A stretch of DNA of 27,907 bases, from IMG/VR virus record IMGVR_UViG_3300020172_000737, positions 1 through 27,907 of that record. The stretch is one strand, 5' to 3'. Below, in pieces: positions 3,508 to 14,354 of the stretch. The notes beneath the pieces are model-generated. The model was not told where the DNA came from and did no database searches. It worked only from the letters and a program-made list of their open reading frames with translations. Every line of letters begins with the position of its first letter. The first letter of the stretch is position 1. Both the position numbers and the translations under genes were made by a program. The stretch is from a virus.

Positions 3508-5286
3508 TTATTGGCAGCTATCTACTATATCACCTGAAGCAAAATCAAGTCCCGCAAAAACTCCATATTGTGCAAGTGTTCTTTCTGTACCAAGAAGCAT
3601 TTCTCCTTGAGTTCCTTCAGTTAGTGTTTTATATATTAGGTCTTTAGATTTTTTATCTAACTCTTGAAACTCATTTGGATAGTCAACCCACAATAACTTA
3701 CGTTTATTAATTTCTACAGGCTTTTCATGATTATAGTAAAGATGGTACATGTATTGCTGATCTGGAACAACAATGTCAAAGCCATTGGTATAGGCTCTTG
3801 CTGCTAGCCATATTTCTTCACCATAGAAAGCTATGTCTGTATTAAATGGCAAAAATCCTCCAACTGTAAATATAGATCCACCAGACACAGACTTTACAAA
3901 TATGTTTCCATCTCCTACTCCGATTGCGGTTTGGCTTGGAATCCTAATAGATTTAAACTGTTCTGGATTTTCATGAAAACCTATGCTTGTTAGATTTTCT
4001 TTTACAATAACATCTGTTTCAATGTGACTTTCAGTTGATGACACGTACCAGTAATTTGCTGGATACATGGTTAGTAGTGGCTTATTAATGCCTTGAGCTT
4101 GATAATTAAGTATTGATTTTACTGCAATCTCATCCCATCCATCAACAAATCTAGAGTGTGAATCACATTGAAGATAGTAGTCTTCTCCATTGTAGAATTG
4201 ATGAGCAAGAGCTCTGCCTGATCCTAGACCAATATTTTTTGGAGCTTTACTTTCTGCATGCTTTACATTTGGTAAGTCGGGTATATTTATTTCTGACTCA
4301 TCTACATAAACTGTATGAACTCCAAAGTTGATGGTATAGTTACCCGAAGATTTTTCTATAGCATCCAATATTGTAGGTGTTACTTCTAGGTCTCTGTATG
4401 CTGCTATTTGTACAAATATGCTAGGCTTTATTTCGTTTTTATTTTCCAAAAACATGTTTAAACAGTAATCAGAAACCGTATTGTTGTTTAGTGGAACTAG
4501 CTCATCATACTTTCCATCTCTTGCTTCAAATTTTGAATAAATTCCCTCACCATGCCACTGGTGTATGTGATAAACTTCCATAATATCTTTATTAGAAAAA
4601 CAATTAGCATCAATCTTATCCGTAATGGACAACCTGTCTTTATCAAAATTGGAACAAATAACTATCTCTGTAGCAATAAGTGTTGATGTTCCAGCGTATA
4701 AAGATTTGCCCCATACTTCACTAATTGTTTTTCCATATTCAGAGTCAGGGCATAGGTGATAAAATATTTTTTTACATAAAAAATCAGACTCATCCATTAT
4801 TTTAATGATATCGTTAGTTGGTCCAAATAAAGTAGAGTTTATTGGAAACATTCTTTGATATTTTTCATAGTTAAACATTTTAGCTAACTCATATGTTTGC
4901 TCAACACATCTATCAGTTCCTGAATACCCACCCCATCCAAAGTATATCTTATCGTCAAATGTATGACTGTTTAAATACTTAGTTACAAAAACATCAGTAT
5001 CTGTTTTTATTAAATGTGTATATTCTTTAAGTATGTCTTGGTTTGACTTTATAAATTCTAAAGATTTTGCAAATTTATAAGACTCATAGTATTTATCTTT
5101 TGGTGCTGCATATTCATAAATAAGTACATTGTGTCTTTTTTTTATTTTATGAATAACCTCTGGCTCAACAAAAAGAACAAAAGTAAATCTGCTGTCTAGA
5201 TATTTACCACTTAGAGTAAATTGGTTTGCCTCATTTACAAAATGATCATACTCTCCAACAAGAGCTACGATTGCAATTTTTTCCAT
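3508..5286 (-). CDS. Two-domain glycosyltransferase; C-terminal half GT60-like polypeptide GlcNAc-transferase
   Basis: A predicted cytoplasmic sugar transferase of 592 residues with two GT-A-like halves. Residues 1-260 carry a DxD motif in IKTDTDVFVT (near 93). Residues about 275-592 match the Skp1-type GlcNAc family (CAZy GT60): IFVQIAAYRDLEVTPTILDA, then YYLQCDSHSRFVDGWD near 368-383 (the family's DSH metal and sugar-nucleotide motif), and YGEEIWLAARAYTNGFDIV near 485, ending in YHLYYNH. Known members attach GlcNAc to hydroxyproline of Skp1 or to threonine of trypanosome mucins. The gene starts inside a TAATG junction with the zinc-binding gene; I prefer this ATG to an in-frame GTG six bases earlier. 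Placed just after the tail-fibre genes, it probably decorates a virion protein. Host cell-wall modification is an alternative. Confidence 0.85.
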   Translation of the reverse strand: MEKIAIVALVGEYDHFVNEANQFTLSGKYLDSRFTFVLFVEPEVIHKIKKRHNVLIYEYAAPKDKYYESYKFAKSLEFIKSNQDILKEYTHLIKTDTDVFVTKYLNSHTFDDKIYFGWGGYSGTDRCVEQTYELAKMFNYEKYQRMFPINSTLFGPTNDIIKIMDESDFLCKKIFYHLCPDSEYGKTISEVWGKSLYAGTSTLIATEIVICSNFDKDRLSITDKIDANCFSNKDIMEVYHIHQWHGEGIYSKFEARDGKYDELVPLNNNTVSDYCLNMFLENKNEIKPSIFVQIAAYRDLEVTPTILDAIEKSSGNYTINFGVHTVYVDESEINIPDLPNVKHAESKAPKNIGLGSGRALAHQFYNGEDYYLQCDSHSRFVDGWDEIAVKSILNYQAQGINKPLLTMYPANYWYVSSTESHIETDVIVKENLTSIGFHENPEQFKSIRIPSQTAIGVGDGNIFVKSVSGGSIFTVGGFLPFNTDIAFYGEEIWLAARAYTNGFDIVVPDQQYMYHLYYNHEKPVEINKRKLLWVDYPNEFQELDKKSKDLIYKTLTEGTQGEMLLGTERTLAQYGVFAGLDFASGDIVDSCQ

Positions 5287-5513
5287 TACCACTTACCTAT
5301 TGGACATTTAGCTGCTTGAAGCTTTGTTTTAACTGCCATAAAACATCCACACTTTTTGCATTGTGTAGTTAATTTTATCAGTTCTGGACAAGAACTGCAT
5401 ATTGCTAATCTACTTTCAGATAGAGCTTCATCTTCTACTATCTTGTTAGAATCTAATAAATGCCAAGGCCTAGTTTCTCCTTGAGCCTTTTTCCATTCTT
5501 CCCACTTTGACAT
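5286..5513 (-). CDS. Six-cysteine zinc-binding small protein
   Basis: A 75-residue protein. Its C-terminal half has six cysteines: C39, C42, C52, C55, C57 and C70 (CSSCPEL, then CKKCGCFM, then KCPIGKW). The pattern is that of a small zinc-binding domain with a closing CPIGKW motif, which I recognise from many uncharacterised phage proteins near tail and structural genes. The N-terminus is tryptophan-rich and charged (MSKWEEWKKAQG). The ATG has an AGGGG ribosome site at good distance, and its stop overlaps the glycosyltransferase ATG (TAATG), so the two are probably made together. It may assist the enzyme or its substrate, but nothing in the sequence proves this. Confidence 0.75.
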   Translation of the reverse strand: MSKWEEWKKAQGETRPWHLLDSNKIVEDEALSESRLAICSSCPELIKLTTQCKKCGCFMAVKTKLQAAKCPIGKW

Positions 5514-5531
5514 ATTTATCCCCTTTTTTTG

Positions 5532-5957
5532 CTATTGATTAATTATGTTTTGGCCATCCCAAATATCACCAATATTTGCTGTCTGGCCTTCTGGAACTTT
5601 AATTATAGTTGTTTCTTCAGAAAATATTGCTTGTAGCTGATTGTCTTGTGCTGAATTAACTGCAGCAATAAATCCACCAATATGAATATTATTGCAAAGA
5701 TATCCATATGTATTAATTGCTTCCCAGTCTCTGTCTAGTGGTACTATAGATACTGTTCCTCCAGTAAACCCTGTACCGTCAAAAGTTGATCCAGGAGTTG
5801 CTGACCACTTATATGGTGTCGTAATCATCCCAATAATAGGAAGACCGCTCTCTAATCCATTAGTCAATATGTCTTGTTTTTCTTGATTAAATGAATATGA
5901 TAGCTCAGTCCAAACATCCCAAGTTCCTTGGCTATTTTTTACTACGCAAGCATACAT
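5532..5957 (-). CDS. Probable small tail-associated protein
   Basis: A 141-residue protein with no named domain. It starts MYACVVKNSQGTWDVWTELS and is rich in aromatic and glycine residues. It ends IKVPEGQTANIGDIWDGQNI, which resembles the 'IGD.YDG..F' ending of many small tail-fibre-associated and fibre-assembly proteins. The start at 5957 is fixed by a clear AAAGGAG site about six bases upstream. It is the first gene after the 921-residue fibre and follows its own extended -10 promoter candidate (5979-5987), so it may head a unit with the zinc-binding and glycosyltransferase genes. Possible roles are fibre chaperone, tip protein or decoration protein; none is proven. Confidence 0.6.
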   Translation of the reverse strand: MYACVVKNSQGTWDVWTELSYSFNQEKQDILTNGLESGLPIIGMITTPYKWSATPGSTFDGTGFTGGTVSIVPLDRDWEAINTYGYLCNNIHIGGFIAAVNSAQDNQLQAIFSEETTIIKVPEGQTANIGDIWDGQNIINQ

Positions 5958-5978
5958 TATTTCTCCTTTTGATATCTA

Positions 5979-5987
5979 AGTTTAGCA
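5979..5987 (-). promoter_or_regulatory. Extended -10 promoter ahead of the 141-residue and glycosyltransferase genes
   Basis: Minus strand reads TGCTAAACT inside TATGCTAAACTTA, nearly the same 13 bases as the site at 24013 (TATGATAAACTTA) and close to that at 3490. It lies in the 44-base gap between the fibre stop and the AAAGGAG ribosome site of the 141-residue gene. No -35 box is recognisable. Its hexamer is weaker than TATAAT, so support comes from the repeated motif and the location. Confidence 0.45.
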
Positions 5988-6001
5988 TATTTGAATTCAT
6001 C

Positions 6002-8767
6002 TTATACAGGACAGAATCCTACTCCACACTCTGTTGATGATATTTCACCGTCACAACCACTTCCACAATAGTTTGTTGGCGGTAGCGTAGTTGTTGTAGT
6101 CGTAGTTGTTGTAGTCGTAGTTCCTGGTGCTGCTGTAGTTCCTGGTGCTGCTGTAGTTCCTGGTGCTGCTGTAGTTCCTGGTGCTGGATCAGCAACTCCA
6201 GTAATGCATACATATGTTTTAACTATCTCTCTCCATTTAGGATCTAGATCTGCTCCTGTATTTTTGTAAACAATTAGCATATCACCCTTAATTGCTGATG
6301 GATATTCTAGCATATCGCCACTAAAACTTGTTCCACTTCCAGTGGAACCATTCACTACACTCTGTGCAACAGTAAATATATTTCTTAGACCACCTGAGCG
6401 ATAAGCGCTTAAAGTTGTTGAGCTTGGACTTACAAGAGTGTAAGTTGAACCTGCTCCAGAAACACCTGCAGATTTAGCAACTTCCACTTGTCTTGTACTG
6501 TCACCTAAGAATATTCTCTTTGGGTCATCAACATTGCTTGCAAAAGAATCTGTTCTGATAAGGTTTTCATTGCCATCAATATATTTTATTGAAAAATCAG
6601 ATCCGTCTGGCTCAAGAGTTTGTATTGAGTAGTTTCCAATTTTAATTCTACCTTCACCCTTTGCAATTATTCCATTAGTAGTAATAGTCCAACCATCTGT
6701 AACAAGATTAGTAGTTGGATCAAATGTTCCAAAACCACCACTGGTAGCTCTTACCTCACCTTTAATTGTTGCACTGCTTGCAAATAGATCTCCAGCTAAA
6801 GTCACTCTAAATGGTGCTGCTGCAATTTGAGATTGAGAACTTACGCCACCTGTTGCCGAAGCTCCACCCCAAAAAACTACTGATTCTAATGCTGATGGAC
6901 TATTTATTCCTGATGTTTCATTAGCTATGGTATCGCTTGCTATTGAGATATATCCTTGGGCAGAGTTTAAAGATATTGTTCCTTGTGCTACACCACCTAC
7001 TGATCTTGTTTTTGATATTGCACTATCAGTTATTGCCCAGCCACCAATGTTTCCAGCATTTGCAATTATTAAACCGTTTTCTGCATCTATTGTTACAGAG
7101 TTTGTTCCATTTGCTACCTTAAGTCCTTTTGAATTTAATGCAAAACCATTTCCAGATAATTCCCCTGCGGAATTAATCGTTCCATTGTAAATTGATGCAT
7201 TAGATGTAGACATAAGAATATTTCCACTGAATGTTCCACTTCTAGCTGTTATATCTCCATCAATTGCAAAGGTAGTTCCATTCCAAGAAATATAGTTTGT
7301 TGTTGATCCGCCAACCTTTAATGATGCTGATTGTGCCGAGTCTATATACCAATAATTGTGTGCGTTAAATACTAAACCTCTTTTGCCAGTATCTACTCCA
7401 TACCCAAACTTAAATGTTCCAGTGTCGGTTCCAGTTACTCCTGCTTGAAAAAATCCTGTGGTTGAGACATTTGTTCCTATAAAAGGAGTTCCGCTAATTG
7501 CAACATTTGACCCAGCAATGTAAGAAGTAGATGTGTTATTATATTCATCATATGTAGCAACTGCAATTTCATATGTCAGACCTGCGCCCAGACCAGATAG
7601 CCTGTATGCAGTTCCAACTCCTGGTGAGTCAGCATAAGAGTATGATGATGCTGGACTTGTTACTGGTCTATATCTTATTCTATATCCACGAATACCGCCA
7701 GTTGTAACAGAAGCCCAGGAGATATCTGCAAAGCCATTAAACCCAATTGTTCCAGTAGTATCTAATCCACCTGTTGTTGTAACCGTTGCTACATTCGCAG
7801 GTCCTTCTGTATCTACTGTAATTGGAGACAGTGGTGTTACTTTTTGTGCAGCAGAAAAACCATCATATTCTCCATTGTCTGCTGAAAATCTGGCTTTAAC
7901 CCATCTAGGATTTGTATTTGTTGTGATTACATTTGCTGGAGAGATACTATTAAAATAAACTCTTGAATATGTAACTCCAGTTGGTTCTGCAGATGCGTTT
8001 GATTCATATTCAACAATCTCAATTGCATCAAATGCTTCAGATGTAGGTATTGTGTATGCTACGCTGTATCCATTATTAGCACTAGTTACTGTTATAACTG
8101 GTATCCCAAGATTACTTACCCAGGCAGGAACAGTTGTATCACAAACACTACCGCTTTTATTATAAAATGCATCTATGGCGTATACACAAACACTTGTAAT
8201 ATTGGTTCTCCAGCGACCTATGGTAGACTGAATCAAAGACTCTGTAAGTGTTGCTGTTTGAGCGGTCTGTGTTCTATTTACTGGGAAAGATCCATATGGG
8301 GTTTGACGAACTGTGCCTGTAGATAAGGTTATCTGTAAAATAAATTCTGTAACGGTTGCATTTGCGGGATCTGCATAATCCCAGTCAAATGTAACAATAA
8401 GATCTTTTGTTTTTCCAGATTCTGTTGACCAAGCTGTTGAAACATTAGTAATGTCTGTTGGTACTATAGCACCATAGCCAACTTGAATAGAAGCTTCTCC
8501 ACCATTGACTCCAGGACGTATAAATCTTTGTGGTTCGCTAGGATGGCCTGCTGTTGGTGGACCAACTGATGCTGTTAAACTTTTTCCTCCACCAATTAAA
8601 GGAATGTCATCTAATCCAACAAGTTCAAGTTCAGCACCTAATCGTGCCCTAGTTTGACCAATTTTGTCCCACGCTGCTCTTGGATCATCAACACTTATTG
8701 TTACGGGTTGATTTCTAGCAACTGACTTGGGGCTTTTATAAACAGACTTAGGCGGTACCTTAGCCAT
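6002..8767 (-). CDS. Tail fibre with FN3 domains and mucin-like, Cys-rich C-terminus
   Basis: A 921-residue tail fibre or tip protein, presumably involved in host contact. Residues about 95-425 hold Ig/FN3-like beta domains (for example ISWASVTTGGIRGYRIRYRP followed by GLTYEIAVATYDEY). The middle has the repetitive beta structure typical of phage fibres (GDITARSGTFSGNI, IGGWAITDSAIS). The C-terminus is unusual: about four APG-type repeats (TTAAPG, residues about 861-882), twelve consecutive threonines (883-894), LPP, and a tip with four cysteines (CGSGC, then ECGVGFC). The threonine run uses mixed ACT, ACG and ACA codons, so it is maintained at protein level. The start is a TAATG overlap with the preceding 183-residue gene. 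Glycosylation by the nearby transferase is inferred. Confidence 0.85.
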   Translation of the reverse strand: MAKVPPKSVYKSPKSVARNQPVTISVDDPRAAWDKIGQTRARLGAELELVGLDDIPLIGGGKSLTASVGPPTAGHPSEPQRFIRPGVNGGEASIQVGYGAIVPTDITNVSTAWSTESGKTKDLIVTFDWDYADPANATVTEFILQITLSTGTVRQTPYGSFPVNRTQTAQTATLTESLIQSTIGRWRTNITSVCVYAIDAFYNKSGSVCDTTVPAWVSNLGIPVITVTSANNGYSVAYTIPTSEAFDAIEIVEYESNASAEPTGVTYSRVYFNSISPANVITTNTNPRWVKARFSADNGEYDGFSAAQKVTPLSPITVDTEGPANVATVTTTGGLDTTGTIGFNGFADISWASVTTGGIRGYRIRYRPVTSPASSYSYADSPGVGTAYRLSGLGAGLTYEIAVATYDEYNNTSTSYIAGSNVAISGTPFIGTNVSTTGFFQAGVTGTDTGTFKFGYGVDTGKRGLVFNAHNYWYIDSAQSASLKVGGSTTNYISWNGTTFAIDGDITARSGTFSGNILMSTSNASIYNGTINSAGELSGNGFALNSKGLKVANGTNSVTIDAENGLIIANAGNIGGWAITDSAISKTRSVGGVAQGTISLNSAQGYISIASDTIANETSGINSPSALESVVFWGGASATGGVSSQSQIAAAPFRVTLAGDLFASSATIKGEVRATSGGFGTFDPTTNLVTDGWTITTNGIIAKGEGRIKIGNYSIQTLEPDGSDFSIKYIDGNENLIRTDSFASNVDDPKRIFLGDSTRQVEVAKSAGVSGAGSTYTLVSPSSTTLSAYRSGGLRNIFTVAQSVVNGSTGSGTSFSGDMLEYPSAIKGDMLIVYKNTGADLDPKWREIVKTYVCITGVADPAPGTTAAPGTTAAPGTTAAPGTTTTTTTTTTTTLPPTNYCGSGCDGEISSTECGVGFCPV
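6086..6121 (-). repeat. 15-base tandem repeat encoding a 12-threonine run
   Basis: Two full copies plus six bases of the unit ACTACGACTACAACA (minus strand), all in frame and encoding twelve threonines of the fibre C-terminus. The unit length is a multiple of three, so gain or loss of copies would change the threonine count without a frameshift. Confidence 0.9.
6122..6186 (-). repeat. 18-base tandem repeat encoding TTAAPG
   Basis: Three perfect copies and an 11-base partial copy of the unit ACTACAGCAGCACCAGGA (minus strand), encoding the hexapeptide TTAAPG in the fibre C-terminus. It directly abuts the threonine-coding repeat. The copies are identical at DNA level, which points to recent expansion by slippage or recombination. 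Confidence 0.92.
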
Positions 8768-9318
8768 TACTTTGGTCCTATAGCAATCCAGTTTATATTA
8801 AAATAGTTAACGGGCTTGGGACTGGCTATTGTTGAAGGTGACTCTGCAGTCAACTCTCTTGCATTAATAACACGAACTGTAAAACCTTTATCAGTTGTTG
8901 CAATTACGGTACAAACAAGACCAACGTTTCTATCTGATGTAACAGTTGAACCAACTAGGGCTGGTGTAACGGTTACAATAGGCTTTGCTTTAAAGCTAGC
9001 TGTTCCACTTGGAGAGTTATCAAAATCTACTGTTTGATAAAACATACTACCATTATTTGTACTTAAATCTTTGGTGCCATATGCTGCAACATCTGTGGTA
9101 TTAATTCTAAACTTTCCATAAAGTATTTTTTGTGAGCCAGAATTAAATTCTTCATAAACTTCTGCTTCTCCATTCCAGTCTGTAACAGCAGTTCCTTTAA
9201 TACCAAAATTATTTGTGATAGCAGAAAGAGTATCGCTGTGTTGATTAATAACGTTAATAACTTGGTGCCAAGCAGCAAGATCTATAATATTAGGGTCTGA
9301 TATTTTAACATATGGCAT
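8767..9318 (-). CDS. Minor tail protein, candidate receptor-binding protein
   Basis: A 183-residue protein between the hub and fibre genes. The N-terminus (MPYVKISDPNIIDLAAWHQV, then INVINQHSDTLSAITNNFG) looks helical and may trimerise or attach to the tail tip. Residues about 75-183 are beta-rich: SFKAKPIVTVTPALVG, GLVCTVIATTDKGFTVRVIN, and a final FNINWIAIGPK. This strand pattern and the closing W-I-A-I-G resemble H-type lectin-like domains at phage tail tips, so carbohydrate binding is plausible. The ATG follows an AAAGGAG ribosome site and its own extended -10 promoter (9338-9346). Its stop overlaps the fibre ATG in a TAATG junction. The lectin assignment rests on pattern only. Confidence 0.65.
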   Translation of the reverse strand: MPYVKISDPNIIDLAAWHQVINVINQHSDTLSAITNNFGIKGTAVTDWNGEAEVYEEFNSGSQKILYGKFRINTTDVAAYGTKDLSTNNGSMFYQTVDFDNSPSGTASFKAKPIVTVTPALVGSTVTSDRNVGLVCTVIATTDKGFTVRVINARELTAESPSTIASPKPVNYFNINWIAIGPK

Positions 9319-9353: not shown

Positions 9354-12300
9354 CTACTCTTGAATCCTTTTAAGATTTAGAGATGTTGATAGTCCTTGGC
9401 TAAAGCTGTGAGATACTGAGTGTACTAGATATCTTTGACCAACAATGCCATTTAAGGAGTAAGACAGGGTTACGGTATCTCCCACTTGAATTAAAGGGTT
9501 GCCAAATATACTTAAAGATACATTTTTAGAAAAACCCTCAATACCTCTTTGAACAACCTTTAGTGTTTTATAGGCTGCTTGCTTAGACTGTATCCACTCT
9601 GAGTCTACCTGAACTGTTTCTGACAAGTTAGAATAATCTATAATGCTTTCAATAATTTCTGGATCTGAAGGTGCAATTATTTCCTGTGTAAATAGATTTA
9701 GAAATACAGTAGCCTTGTTTACATCATCAGAGTCTTTTTTAAGGTACACCATATGTGGGGATCCATTGGCTATTGCCATTCTTGCTCTGAACCCAGTATT
9801 GATTGGTGTTGAATAAGCTAGAGAATATTCATCAACTATTTTCTTCTGAAATTGTTGTTTATCTATTGGCTTATTACCTGGAAAATATTTCATCATATAG
9901 CTAACTGGAAAAACGTCTACAGAAACAGCAGCTGGGGTTTGATACTCAACATCATAATAATTAATTCCAGATACTTCTGGAGTTGTTTGCATAAGATATG
10001 TGGGAGACTTTGTATACAGTGGTTGTTTTTGAACTAGTCCATTTAAAAATTCTCTATCTTGATAGAAGTAATTTACACTTCTTTCTTTTAATGGTTTTAC
10101 AGTAGCGTGTATTTCTCTCAGAGTTGCTGGGTTATCAGAGGTTGGAAGAAGATTTACTTTTTCTGGAAAAAGATTAGTTATGGTCTGTGGGACACTACAA
10201 GCAAAAAACCCAAATTTTGTACCAATTTTAATGTCATCTGATATCGTTGGCTTTTGCCCCAGGCCCGTAAGTTGATTAACTTTTGATGCTGCCCATCCAG
10301 TTGCCGATGGTGCAGTGGTTGCATTATATTGTGTTCCAGGAATTTGCCAGCCAGTTATCTCAACATTATTTATAAACACTAGCAAACAGTTTTTTGGATC
10401 TTCAACTGTTGCATCTTCTCCATCTTTACCATCTGTTAAATAATGAACCACCTTTAAATTAAAACACTGATCTCTTTCATAAGAATATATAGGTATATCT
10501 TCTGTACCCTCCTTCTTTAATACTTTGGAAAAATTATCAATTATATTAATACACTCAGCAGTAACATCTGCCCATGACTTGGTTGCTCCTGTATGATCAT
10601 AAATGCTTAGGGTGTAATTATATGCTGGTGGATCATAGAGCTCCTGTGTTTTTGGATTAAGCTTATTGTATCTTGCAAGTTCTACAAAGTATGTGCCTGT
10701 AAGATCAGTTGCACTTGTCATATTAAAGAATAAACCTGCTGCTGCTCCACCTTCTTCATCTAATTTAAATTTAACAGAGTATGTTTTATAGCCAATGTCT
10801 ACTTGAGATGTTGGAAATATAAGTGCTGAATCAGAATCTGTTGGAGTTAAGGCAATGCTTTTTACCTCTGGCAGTTTAGGATATGCCGCCCTACTATTAA
10901 CAATTGATGTTGTAGGTGCTGTATTAGATATTGCAAATCCTGAAGTTACAGCTATTTTTGACAAACCCTTGCTTGCTAAATCTTCTATTTTTTTATGTTC
11001 CATAGGTACGGTTCCAAATAGACCACGTTCTACATTTGTAATTTTTCCTGTTAGTTCTACGAGGACGTCATAGTCTGCAGATATATAGGCTTCCCCACCT
11101 GACACATATGTTCCTGTTTGTTTTCCTAATATCTTAAATGATGTTGCTGTTCTTTCACTAATAATACCTTGAATATTATAAAGAAATGGAACAACTCCAG
11201 CAATCATTACTCTGTCACCAACTTTAAAGGTATTCGCTGATGTATAAGTAATCGCAGTTCCATTACCAGAGACAGAGGTAATTTTAGCAGTAGATAGTCT
11301 AAGCCCAATACCTTGTTCTTTAATAAATGTATCTATATATGAAGTAAGATCAAGATTATTTTTAATAGATATAAATTTTTCTTTGCTGCCACTAAGAGTT
11401 GACAGCTTATATTCTTTATATGCAAAAGAAACAATTTCATTTTCAATAAATGCAAAGCCATCATTACTCATATCAAATGTATAAAAAATATCTAGTAAAT
11501 CACTAGTGTTAATCTCAAATATATTAGAATTTTCTAGCATATCTGATTTAAGATAATTAAACCCAACAGAGTCAACGGTTTGCTGGCTCCAAACAACATC
11601 ATTTGAAGTCGTGTATATATAAGATGGGGAATTTTTTATATCAACATTTTTTACATTCTGAACAGGTGGTGATTGTTTAATTTTTGGTGTTTGATATTTT
11701 AAAGAAATTTTTCCTGGTTTAGCATTATTTGATATATTAAATCCATCTTTCATAATGTTGCCATCTGTCAAAGCAAGGTTAGACCCTGAAGATGATAGTA
11801 TGTCATGTAAACTTAAAAACTTCATAACCCCATACTCATCAATATATGCACCAATTTGATAAGCTATAAATAATTCATTTAAACATTCCATAATAGTTGA
11901 ATCTTTAGAATTACAATAATAATAATAAAGATTTACTGGAGCTTCTGATGAGTCAAATATTCTATAAAGAGAGTCATAGTCATAATCTGTAAATCCAGAT
12001 AAATCTAAAATATTTGTTATAATTTCAAATGGCCTCTTTAAATTCACAACATAGTCTGCTACTGATATTGATTGTAAATACCTAGAAATGTCAAAACATT
12101 GAACTGTGATATCCTTAATATCATTTTCAACCCAAGAGTCTGAATAGAAAACTCCGCCAGGGATATAGGTATCTGGCGATATTTTTGAGTTAGGTGATGC
12201 ATATTCTTTAAGATGAAAGTTTACATAAAACTTAATATTTTTTCTTAGCATGTTTGCTAATATTGTAGATGACTGATCACTTTGACTAGAAAATATTGGA

Positions 12301-14354
12301 ACTATGGTTGATCCAATCATAGCTGGTATTCCAGATAAAGTAATTTGGGCATCGTTAGAGTTTAGAGAAGAAATTGGAAGCAGGCTATTGCTTGCATCTA
12401 AAGATTTATTAATAGATACAGACTGAACAAAATCTGTCAAATCAATCTCAAGTCTTGGAGAAATTTCTACTACGTGCATTCTTTTTAAATCAGATACTAC
12501 ATTTAATGAAGCTGAAGGAATTTCTGTTGGTGTTGAAGTACAGTTTACTGTATAGTTTATTGTCCGAGATGCAGAAGCTCCTTGCTGGTTATCTGCTGCG
12601 TATACCGTTAAAGTTAGTGCATAGGTTGTTCCACAATCTCCAAGCCCAAGATAGAGGTCTGTAGCTGAGTTTGCATTGCTTGTGTATGTGGCCCCAATAC
12701 TTGTTGAAGGAGACATTGTTATTTTATAAGAGGATGCATTAGAATAACTAAATAATGCCCAGATAGTTTGTTTTTGTGAAGCAGTTAATGTTGAGCATCT
12801 CCCAGTATCTGGGTTGGGGCATTGGGCAGAAAATGAGTTGATTGTTGGTCCTGCCGAAGCTGGTGGAACTTCTCCTGTTAAAGATAAAAATTCTGGGTTA
12901 GTTGTTTGATCTATCTGAGTTATAGTTATCTTGCTAAATGATGTAGATAAATATAATGATCCAGTAGAGCTAAACTGTGGCATTGATGACCACTTTGTTT
13001 TAGTCCAAGCAGAACCATTCCAGTATAGAATTAGGACTCCAGTACTTCTTCCACCTTCTGAGTTAGCTGAAGGTGATATATTTTGACTGCCGTCAACTGT
13101 AATGTTAGTTTCATCAATAGCTATGTTAACAACTGGTACAGTCATCAATGTATTAAACTTAATAACCAACTTATTTGTTGTGATTGGCTTTTCATAAATA
13201 GATGTAATGCTTCTTGATGATTCATCTGAAACAAAATATCTGTATTCAGATGTATCTGTTGGTAAAGCATTTTTTAATATTGGTACAGGCTTAGAGGCAA
13301 GACAAAACTTTGGATTTTGTAAAATTGGAGTTACTGGAAAATATGTAGGAGTAGTATATCCATCAAGTACTGGAGAGGTAATCTTTCTAAATGCAGATGG
13401 AAAGGTTGACTTTATGTTACCTGATCCTACATATGACTCCCCTGGCCTAAAATATGTAAATGGCATTTCTGTTGGAAATAGGGAGTGGTTTTGATAATCA
13501 AAATAAGTGGTAGCGTATACTTTAGGTTCTGTAAAATATACTATTGGATTATTTGTTTCACCACTTATGGAGTTGGCTGCGATAGTGTATACAAAGCTTG
13601 CAAAGGTGTTATCAGAGCTTTGGGAGCCTACGTAGGTAACAACCTTAGTCAATCCTAAAGAGTCTGCCTCAACGTACTCAGAGCCGTACTGAACGCCTGT
13701 TCCTCTTCCTGATGCATTTATCATTACTGGAATAGGACTACTAGTCTTTACATATGTGACTACTTTATATGCAGAACTAGATCCTCCAGATGGTGCAGTA
13801 ACAGTATATGATACTTTTCCTTGACTAATCATATCTTGTGGGGATGACTGAGTTGTAAAAATTTGACTAATACTACCAAGAACACCAAATGAAGAATTAC
13901 ATGCATCAATGCTTACAGTATATGATTGACCTGATGATAGTCCAGAAAAGGTATAGCTTGTTCCCGTTGAAACTGTGTCGGACTGACCACTTGTTTGCAC
14001 TCTATATAATACAGTTCCAGTTGGTGGATTAGACCAAGAAACATTAATACTAGATGAAGATACAACTGAACCTGTTATAGCAAAGGCACTTGCGCTTGGT
14101 GTTGATGTAGTAATTGGTTGAACGTTAACTGGTCGCAGCATAGCAAAACTTTTAGTTACAAAGTTAGGTTTAAGCGTAGGTGTTACATCGCTTGGCAAAG
14201 GTGATATTGCTTCTATATCTAACTCTTCACCAATTCCAGCGGTAGTAATATATGGAGCATTAAATAGATTATGATTCCACTCCGCAGAAACTACTGGTGT
14301 CAAAGTGATTGAGTCTGAGCCTGTAAAGACTGAAGAGCTGACATTACTTAGCAT
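9354..14354 (-). CDS. Baseplate hub / tail-tip protein (Tal-like) with FN3 and lectin-like insertions
   Basis: A 1666-residue tail-tip protein that probably closes the distal tail and contacts the cell. An FN3 domain lies near 88-178 (SINVSWSNPPTGTVLYRV, then SGLSSGQSYTVSIDAC) and another Ig-like domain near 500-605. From about 615 (MHVVEISPRLEIDLTDFVQS) to about 1000 the sequence resembles the hub fold of siphovirus tail tips (GGVFYSDSWVENDIKDITVQ, then ISRYLQ). A small beta domain (FKVGDRVMIAGVVPFLYNIQ) sits near 1035-1080. A concanavalin/laminin-G-like domain spans about 1175-1390 (YSVKFKLDEEGGAAAGLFFN, then YFVELARY). The last 60 residues (IQVGDTVTLSYSLNGIVG, YLVHSVSHSFSQGLSTSLNL) are a typical hub C-terminus. 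It starts in a TAATG junction. Confidence 0.8.
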   Translation of the reverse strand: MLSNVSSSVFTGSDSITLTPVVSAEWNHNLFNAPYITTAGIGEELDIEAISPLPSDVTPTLKPNFVTKSFAMLRPVNVQPITTSTPSASAFAITGSVVSSSSINVSWSNPPTGTVLYRVQTSGQSDTVSTGTSYTFSGLSSGQSYTVSIDACNSSFGVLGSISQIFTTQSSPQDMISQGKVSYTVTAPSGGSSSAYKVVTYVKTSSPIPVMINASGRGTGVQYGSEYVEADSLGLTKVVTYVGSQSSDNTFASFVYTIAANSISGETNNPIVYFTEPKVYATTYFDYQNHSLFPTEMPFTYFRPGESYVGSGNIKSTFPSAFRKITSPVLDGYTTPTYFPVTPILQNPKFCLASKPVPILKNALPTDTSEYRYFVSDESSRSITSIYEKPITTNKLVIKFNTLMTVPVVNIAIDETNITVDGSQNISPSANSEGGRSTGVLILYWNGSAWTKTKWSSMPQFSSTGSLYLSTSFSKITITQIDQTTNPEFLSLTGEVPPASAGPTINSFSAQCPNPDTGRCSTLTASQKQTIWALFSYSNASSYKITMSPSTSIGATYTSNANSATDLYLGLGDCGTTYALTLTVYAADNQQGASASRTINYTVNCTSTPTEIPSASLNVVSDLKRMHVVEISPRLEIDLTDFVQSVSINKSLDASNSLLPISSLNSNDAQITLSGIPAMIGSTIVPIFSSQSDQSSTILANMLRKNIKFYVNFHLKEYASPNSKISPDTYIPGGVFYSDSWVENDIKDITVQCFDISRYLQSISVADYVVNLKRPFEIITNILDLSGFTDYDYDSLYRIFDSSEAPVNLYYYYCNSKDSTIMECLNELFIAYQIGAYIDEYGVMKFLSLHDILSSSGSNLALTDGNIMKDGFNISNNAKPGKISLKYQTPKIKQSPPVQNVKNVDIKNSPSYIYTTSNDVVWSQQTVDSVGFNYLKSDMLENSNIFEINTSDLLDIFYTFDMSNDGFAFIENEIVSFAYKEYKLSTLSGSKEKFISIKNNLDLTSYIDTFIKEQGIGLRLSTAKITSVSGNGTAITYTSANTFKVGDRVMIAGVVPFLYNIQGIISERTATSFKILGKQTGTYVSGGEAYISADYDVLVELTGKITNVERGLFGTVPMEHKKIEDLASKGLSKIAVTSGFAISNTAPTTSIVNSRAAYPKLPEVKSIALTPTDSDSALIFPTSQVDIGYKTYSVKFKLDEEGGAAAGLFFNMTSATDLTGTYFVELARYNKLNPKTQELYDPPAYNYTLSIYDHTGATKSWADVTAECINIIDNFSKVLKKEGTEDIPIYSYERDQCFNLKVVHYLTDGKDGEDATVEDPKNCLLVFINNVEITGWQIPGTQYNATTAPSATGWAASKVNQLTGLGQKPTISDDIKIGTKFGFFACSVPQTITNLFPEKVNLLPTSDNPATLREIHATVKPLKERSVNYFYQDREFLNGLVQKQPLYTKSPTYLMQTTPEVSGINYYDVEYQTPAAVSVDVFPVSYMMKYFPGNKPIDKQQFQKKIVDEYSLAYSTPINTGFRARMAIANGSPHMVYLKKDSDDVNKATVFLNLFTQEIIAPSDPEIIESIIDYSNLSETVQVDSEWIQSKQAAYKTLKVVQRGIEGFSKNVSLSIFGNPLIQVGDTVTLSYSLNGIVGQRYLVHSVSHSFSQGLSTSLNLKRIQE

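Follow-up and report, generated by a model that had tools for sequence, protein, structure and literature searches.

In a freshwater phage and its relatives we find a modular set of genes that likely serves to modify the low-complexity tail of the phage's own tail-tip protein. The window, by which we mean the whole stretch of DNA analyzed here, is a virus record of 27,907 bases, and it encodes a tip protein ending in Pro/Thr repeats a short distance ahead of a two-domain glycosyltransferase of family GT60. Repeats and enzymes are exchanged jointly among close relatives, and, as far as gene content can be read, these phages probably add hydroxyl groups and sugars to the tips of their own tails.

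A two-domain glycosyltransferase behind a mucin-like tail tip

On the minus strand, the tail genes are followed by the tip gene, a 141-residue gene, a gene for a DUF6171 protein and the glycosyltransferase (Table 1); farther downstream lie small genes, a DnaB-like helicase and what its sequence suggests is a primase-like protein. This gene order, together with the minor tail protein annotation of distant relatives of the 1666-residue upstream gene product, points to the tip as a virion protein. We used the 1666-residue tail protein as a lineage marker for relatives of the window. Since all 124 INPHARED records that contain a relative of it are Streptomyces or Rhodococcus phages, the host of the window phage is probably an actinobacterium. 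In related loci other small proteins or a 2OG oxygenase occupy the slot of the 141-residue gene, and DUF6171, present at 25 of 35 loci, is the most constant cassette member across lineages. Within the 27,907 bases of the window, a contig that is a fragment of the phage genome, the profiles used detect no 2OG oxygenase, and no base-hypermodification genes were recognized there.

Table 1. Features of the window, with positions, strand and basis of assignment
Feature	Position	Strand	Basis or remark
Tail protein, 1666 aa, upstream of tip	9354..14354	-	Distant relatives annotated minor tail protein
183-aa gene between tail protein and tip	8767..9318	-	Conserved in lineage
Tail-tip/fibre protein, 921 aa	6002..8767	-	Residues 17-859 = conserved body, fn3-like stretch
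Mucin-like repeat tail, residues 859-897, ADPAPG(TTAAPG)x3-T12-LPP	6077..6193	-	Likely acceptor region (predicted)
T12 run, residues 883-894	6086..6121	-	Translated tip ORF
Cys-containing C-terminal cap TNYCGSGCDGEISSTECGVGFCPV	6005..6076	-	Cys enrichment among tips
141-aa gene directly 3' of tip	5532..5957	-	ORF list
DUF6171 protein, 75 aa, paired CxxC motifs	5286..5513	-	PF19668, 35 bits vs cut-off 27
Two-domain glycosyltransferase	3508..5292	-	594 aa from GTG, 592 from ATG two codons in
N-terminal domain, PF23741/DUF7164, GT6-like fold, invariant D-T-D	4438..5292	-	73 bits; pLDDT 85
C-terminal domain, PF11397/GT60, predicted to start glycan	3511..4437	-	Pfam + fold like polypeptide GalNAc-transferases
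Putative metal-binding DxH, D377-S378-H379	4156..4164	-	D in 49/50, H in 50/50 aligned GT60 domains

A preliminary description of this DNA, made from its letters alone, had placed TTAAPG repeats, twelve threonines and LPP at the end of a fibre and, two genes away, an enzyme with GT60 signatures. The translated tip indeed ends in ADPAPG-TTAAPG-TTAAPG-TTAAPG-T12-LPPT-NYCGSGCDGEISSTECGVGFCPV, and two genes do lie between tip and enzyme. Over 40 residues the repeat region is 65% Pro+Thr, as expected of a mucin-like Pro/Thr tandem repeat, and the T12 run lies beyond compositional expectation, because the longest Thr run among 2000 shuffles of the tip protein was 8 (mean 3.1). The fn3 match in the tip, at 24.8 bits, falls slightly below the cut-off of 25. 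A further ORF crossing the repeats in another frame (6213..6019) was discarded as a repeat artefact. At least four Cys occur in the last 50 residues of 56 of 81 tips beside modification genes, compared with 2 of 53 tips without such genes and 3.4% of background ORFs. At two loci (L023:3408-6401 and L032:5526-8072) Thr-rich tips terminate in a Hint/intein-like domain (CVEENTLVDTPNG...HNK), the Hint_2 match of 22 bits being below the cut-off.

The signatures AAYRD, LQCDSHSRF and YGEEIWLAAR all reside, as described, in the C-terminal half of the enzyme, and the family assignment drawn from them is borne out: this half matches Pfam PF11397, 'Glycosyltransferase (GlcNAc)', with 112 bits against a cut-off of 21 (E 5e-32), and the divergent relatives at L157, L165, L187 and L224 match PF11397 independently over cut-off. 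Structure prediction, proposed in the preliminary description as a check, also agrees. An AlphaFold2 model of the GT60 domain computed from a 50-row alignment (pLDDT 95, pTM 0.93) was compared with the PDB using Foldseek, and the top 34 matches are all GT27 polypeptide GalNAc-transferases, with E 5e-8 and up at a moderate TM of 0.5-0.57. GT27 enzymes initiate mucin-type O-glycans. In the model the domain thus appears as a GT-A fold related to GT27 that carries a putative metal-binding motif of the DxH/DxD kind. E492 and E493 are found in 50 of 50 aligned GT60 domains and H517 in 44 of 50; by analogy with GT27, the DxH, the Glu pair and H517 may have catalytic roles. A profile of the 50 GT60 domains retrieves no sequence relatives from the PDB at E <= 10, in a library that includes GT27 chains; the domain resembles GT27 in fold and is not a member of it by sequence. 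The catalytic residues persist among GT60 genes down to 19-24% identity, which argues that GT60 function is under selection.

Pfam places the N-terminal domain in DUF7164 (PF23741) and not in the GT6 sequence family. Foldseek matches its model to the ABO transferase and alpha-1,3-GalT, both GT6 (E 3.5e-9, TM ~0.52), and D98-T-D100, a DxD motif as in GT6, is kept in 10 of 10 aligned N-terminal domains. DUF7164 is in relatives a separate gene adjoining GT60. Because one domain has a GT27-like fold and the other a GT6-like fold with a DTD motif, the two models can reasonably be read as an enzyme that starts a glycan joined to one that likely extends it; the earlier suggestion that the first domain may extend the glycan fits its predicted likeness to GT6 alpha-Gal/GalNAc-transferases.

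Pairing of repeats with enzymes across loci

A search with the window enzyme identified 34 IMG/VR loci, in which the GT60 is mostly stand-alone. The conserved order is repeat-rich protein, small gene, DUF6171, radical SAM/SPASM protein, GT60 and NAD-dependent epimerase, sometimes with DUF7164, and at least four structural backgrounds contain the GT60 cassette. Radical SAM/SPASM and epimerase genes are frequent further members; a radical SAM/SPASM protein lies between DUF6171 and GT60 at L008:5676-6680 and 24 other loci and is absent from the window. Since SPASM proteins often modify peptides, a further modification of the tip is possible. At L209:12613-13647, a GT61-type glycosyltransferase (PF04577) occupies the GT60 slot behind a (VTPP)n tip.

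To these 34 loci we added GT60 genes from a profile search (best 80 of 288 matches) and 15 from a divergent relative; alignment A3 of divergent GT60s, having no sufficiently conserved block for scanning, gave way to alignment A2 and the L165 enzyme. This gave 51 distinct GT60 genes preceded by 4 kb or more of upstream DNA. With Pro/Thr-rich defined as at least 60% Pro+Thr over 40 residues, a Pro/Thr-rich ORF lies within 4.5 kb upstream of 40 of these 51 genes among the matches listed, so the co-occurrence survey that had been suggested for this pairing came out in its favor. Most of the remaining 11 have shorter upstream poly-Thr stretches, and L274 and L291 are clear exceptions; L035, considered as another, has a tip with TTTTPAPTTTTTPAP that is marginally under the threshold. 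Where 4.5 kb was available on both sides (30 genes among the matches listed), the repeat protein lies solely upstream in 22 cases, solely downstream in none and on neither side in 8.

As a lineage control, relatives of the 1666-residue tail protein were retrieved irrespective of GT60 and near-duplicates were removed. Pro/Thr-rich tips were present at 6 of 8 distinct loci whose tip is followed by modification genes versus 2 of 25 without such genes (p = 6e-4). The two loci that carry modification genes behind other kinds of tip are L224, where a GT60 accompanies a (VYYAPP)n tail, and L192, which has no clear repeat; L226, one of the two Pro/Thr-rich tips without modification genes, has an oxygenase some kilobases further along. 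Most tips lacking a Pro/Thr-rich tail in this control have FFPP or no repeats. Long, hydrophobic (FFPP)n ends are seen at L172, L174, L189, L199 and other relatives without modification genes.

The joint exchange of repeats and enzymes provides the strongest evidence for a functional link between them. Residues 17-859 of the tip share 62-67% identity with the tips of L165, L157 and L183, and the similarity to the L165 tip (67% over these residues) stops exactly where the repeats start, at residue 859. The window with its near-twin L156, L165 and L157 have near-identical tail proteins and three different repeat-enzyme pairs: T12 with GT60-GT6 in the window and L156, (TP)n with a 2OG oxygenase and another GT60 in L165, and (VTPP)n with a different oxygenase-like protein and another GT60 in L157. 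On the tail-protein tree, the modification label requires five changes. In a second lineage, represented by the best 80 of 395 F11 relatives, each locus assessed among the matches listed encodes a tip with Pro/Thr repeats and, behind it, DUF6171 and oxygenases, in some cases together with GT60 and in others not. As all its tips are of the modified type, this lineage was rejected as a negative control and informs on pairing, not on presence or absence.

Enzyme type also tracks repeat type. Among 152 distinct Pro/Thr-rich tips, compared with thresholds set following a first look, those with a GT60 and no oxygenase (n = 39) are poly-Thr with a median P/T ratio of 0.23, those with GT60 and oxygenase (n = 24) have a ratio of 0.98, and those with an oxygenase only (n = 24) a ratio of 1.46, all above 0.6. 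The difference between GT60 tips without and with an oxygenase gives p = 6e-7 with phylogeny not removed; because loci share ancestry, p-values such as this overstate the evidence. A ratio above 0.6 beside modification genes is found for 41 of 48 tips with an oxygenase and 3 of 39 without. Poly-Thr pairs with GT60 alone, and (TP)n, (VTPP)n and (VAP)n pair with 2OG oxygenases of prolyl-hydroxylase-like type, whether or not a GT60 is present as well. The P4H-type oxygenases belong to PF13640. A second type, Ox2, matches Asp/Asn hydroxylases weakly, and for that reason prolyl activity of Ox2 is a guess from sequence.

The preliminary description had proposed that the phage makes both a mucin-type acceptor and the enzyme that modifies it. 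The association between the two proves tight, and the pair turns out to represent one form of a broader cassette that also includes 2OG oxygenases, radical SAM/SPASM proteins and epimerases, and in which the repeats of relatives are often Pro-rich rather than Thr-rich.

Proposed mechanism and alternative explanations

We propose a tip built from a conserved body, a Pro/Thr-repeat tail that can be exchanged and, in many cases, a cap rich in Cys, with matching enzymes encoded just downstream that most likely act within the infected cell on newly made tip. In the window phage, the GT60 domain would add a first sugar, probably alpha-GlcNAc (the donor is a guess), to many Thr of the TTAAPG/T12 tail, and the fused GT6-like domain would extend the glycan by a second sugar. 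Where relatives carry (TP)n, (VTPP)n or (VAP)n tails, the 2OG oxygenases would hydroxylate proline, and the resulting hydroxyproline may then be glycosylated by GT60 in the manner of Gnt1 on Skp1. UDP-Gal or UDP-GalNAc may come from the epimerases, and a further change to the peptide may be made by the SPASM protein. Tips modified in this way would present a stiff glycan brush between body and Cys cap, with a protease-resistant, variable surface for adsorption or shielding as its possible benefit. TTAAPGTTTTTTTTLPP, (TP)10 and (T-Hyp)10 are predicted candidate acceptor peptides. We are evenly divided on the broader proposition that aquatic phages, partly of actinobacteria, possess an exchangeable system that makes their tips into hydroxyproline- and Thr-linked glycoproteins resembling mucins and plant extensins, the repeat tail and the enzyme set (GT60, 2OG oxygenases, radical SAM/SPASM, epimerase, GT6-like) recombining as matched modules.

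The presence of a Thr-rich tip does not imply a GT60. A DNA scan for TTTTAAPTTTT returned 79 new loci, few of them with GT60 (L047, L057, L113); the flanks of 42 such loci contain Glycos_transf_2 in six proteins and single matches to three other families. Neither GT60 nor oxygenase lies within 4.5 kb of 65 of the 152 Pro/Thr tips, most of those 65 having been chosen by the poly-Thr pattern. As poly-Thr tips are often without GT60 and some are near other glycosyltransferases, either other enzymes do the work or the tips require no sugar. These frequent poly-Thr tips without GT60, and the joint movement of gene blocks in phages, would suit an explanation in which the repeat tails serve as disordered linkers that stay unmodified, or receive modifications from host enzymes, and GT60 hitchhikes in a block with the tip. 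We judge this unlikely, because conservation of catalytic residues across highly diverged GT60 genes speaks for selection on function, because several GT60 subfamilies and oxygenases lie beside matching repeats in different backgrounds, and because some bacterial GT60 genes also adjoin Pro/Thr-repeat proteins (L398, L400). It is similarly improbable that the glycosyltransferases and oxygenases modify the host surface, for receptor masking or superinfection exclusion, with the cassette merely located in a variable tail region. A role in altering the cell-wall glycans of the host is commonly suggested for phage glycosyltransferases, as for those of Nanopelagicales phages (PMC10202952), and accessory genes do accumulate in variable tail regions; yet such a role predicts neither that enzyme type tracks repeat type, nor a strictly upstream repeat gene, nor a polypeptide-transferase fold, and no membrane anchor or lipid-carrier enzyme was recognized in the cassettes.

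GT60 is rare among isolated phages, with 3 of 50,697 records, all jumbo phages with a different gene context, and the radical SAM protein of the cassette was found in none of the isolated-phage records searched. Jumbo phages XacN1 (L232:8025-9398) and RAS14 (L433:7001-8437) encode distant GT60 homologs of 23-28% identity located by replication genes; the XacN1 gene adjoins a carbamoyltransferase and is near a DNA polymerase, and it possibly takes part in DNA or nucleotide modification. No coding run of seven Thr exists anywhere in either genome. Retention of the enzyme by related phages lacking any Thr-rich virion protein had been named as evidence against the pairing; these two phages are such a case, and the pairing holds in the tip-linked clade only. 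Their gene context could fit an enzyme that modifies phage DNA, and phage enzymes glycosylate mycobacteriophage capsids (PMC11652166), which could fit a virion protein other than the tip as the acceptor. For the window enzyme we regard either target as very improbable, given that no base-hypermodification genes are recognized in the window and that GT60 is associated with the tip, not with capsid or replication genes. Modification of the tip's repeat tail is the reading we retain.

The bacterial GT60 genes recovered by the scan are all in non-actinobacteria, and the host is on this count unsupported as a source of GT60. Directly behind or close to a repeat protein, as in the phages, bacterial GT60 genes occur in Pseudoduganella (L398:2-1993, (DTPAPT)n) and Halomonas (L400:1902-5129, (PEPT)n). 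In many SAR86 genomes and other Gammaproteobacteria, GT60 adjoins a prolyl-hydroxylase-like gene (L399, L403-L405, L407, L409, L411-L413, L418-L420 and L422; divergently transcribed in L399 and L412), and the SAR86 genes are a possible bacterial Skp1-like hydroxyproline-GlcNAc pair.

Known systems and implications

The closest parallel for the window is Trypanosoma cruzi, in which a GT60 UDP-GlcNAc:polypeptide alpha-GlcNAc-transferase initiates O-glycans on Thr of mucins (PMC3769586). The likeness to this mucin system, already noted in the preliminary description, extends to Pro-bounded Thr runs, APG-T12-LPP in the window and KPPTTTTTTTTKPP in T. cruzi, the latter being the classical peptide acceptor on which GlcNAc is alpha-linked to Thr (PMC3769586). 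The T. cruzi enzyme is a Golgi protein that acts on a cell-surface mucin, whereas the phage enzyme is predicted to be cytoplasmic, carries a fused GT6-like domain and is encoded next to a tail-tip gene. For Skp1 of Dictyostelium and Toxoplasma, hydroxylation by PhyA is followed by Gnt1/GT60 acting on hydroxyproline (PMC6939170). A prolyl-hydroxylase-like gene likewise stands beside GT60 in relatives (L165, L187, L302-L314, L322-L326), and the Skp1-type arrangement of a prolyl hydroxylase preceding GT60 is seen only in relatives such as L165 and L187, the window having no nearby oxygenase. Skp1 differs further in that a single Pro of a ubiquitin-ligase subunit is modified, in contrast to the long repeats of phage tips.

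A few mycobacteriophages are known to glycosylate their virions with enzymes of their own, and we know of no link between that O-glycosylation and exchangeable repeats, hydroxylases or GT60. Mycobacteriophage enzymes O-glycosylate the virion (Freeman et al. 2023, cited in PMC11652166); there, actinophage enzymes glycosylate the phage's own capsid and/or tail, as is predicted for the tip in the window. The prolyl 4-hydroxylase of chlorovirus PBCV-1 acts on Pro-rich repeat peptides (Eriksson 1999, as quoted within PMC9301287); it resembles the phage relatives in being a virus-encoded prolyl hydroxylase with repeat substrates, which in the phages are predicted. PBCV-1 is an algal virus, whereas the phage genes sit directly after their presumed substrate and are paired with GT60. 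Marine phages encode 2OG-Fe(II) oxygenases of PHROG 61 that are EGLN3-like, widespread and unassigned in substrate (PMC12774648); these belong to the same broad family as the cassette oxygenases and occur without GT60. In Synechococcus phage S-MbCM7 (L430:1-2676), the short tail fibre gene gp12 is directly followed by two genes for 2OG-Fe(II) oxygenases that are separated from each other by a single gene, and on that ground a tail-modifying role might extend to cyanophages. Finally, prolyl hydroxylase genes rank with the most abundant viral auxiliary genes; P4HA and galE are among the abundant auxiliary genes of Baltic viruses, where the use of P4HA 'remains cryptic' and an ahbD (radical SAM) call was doubted (PMC9301287).

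The freely accessible published literature searched contains no description of this cassette, and there is a fair chance that it represents a distinct class of virion-modification cassette. If the pairing is right, the substrate of abundant viral prolyl hydroxylases and 2OG oxygenases would be the low-complexity tail of the tip encoded just upstream, and some viral 'auxiliary metabolic genes' (prolyl 4-hydroxylase, galE, radical SAM) would be virion-modifying, not metabolic. A GT60 of the short bacterial type, together with its matched repeat substrates, could also offer a simple means of producing mucin-like glycopeptides. Skp1- and mucin-type chemistry would then be present in phages, and would add to the way phages meet their hosts a fast-changing layer that lies outside the genetic code.
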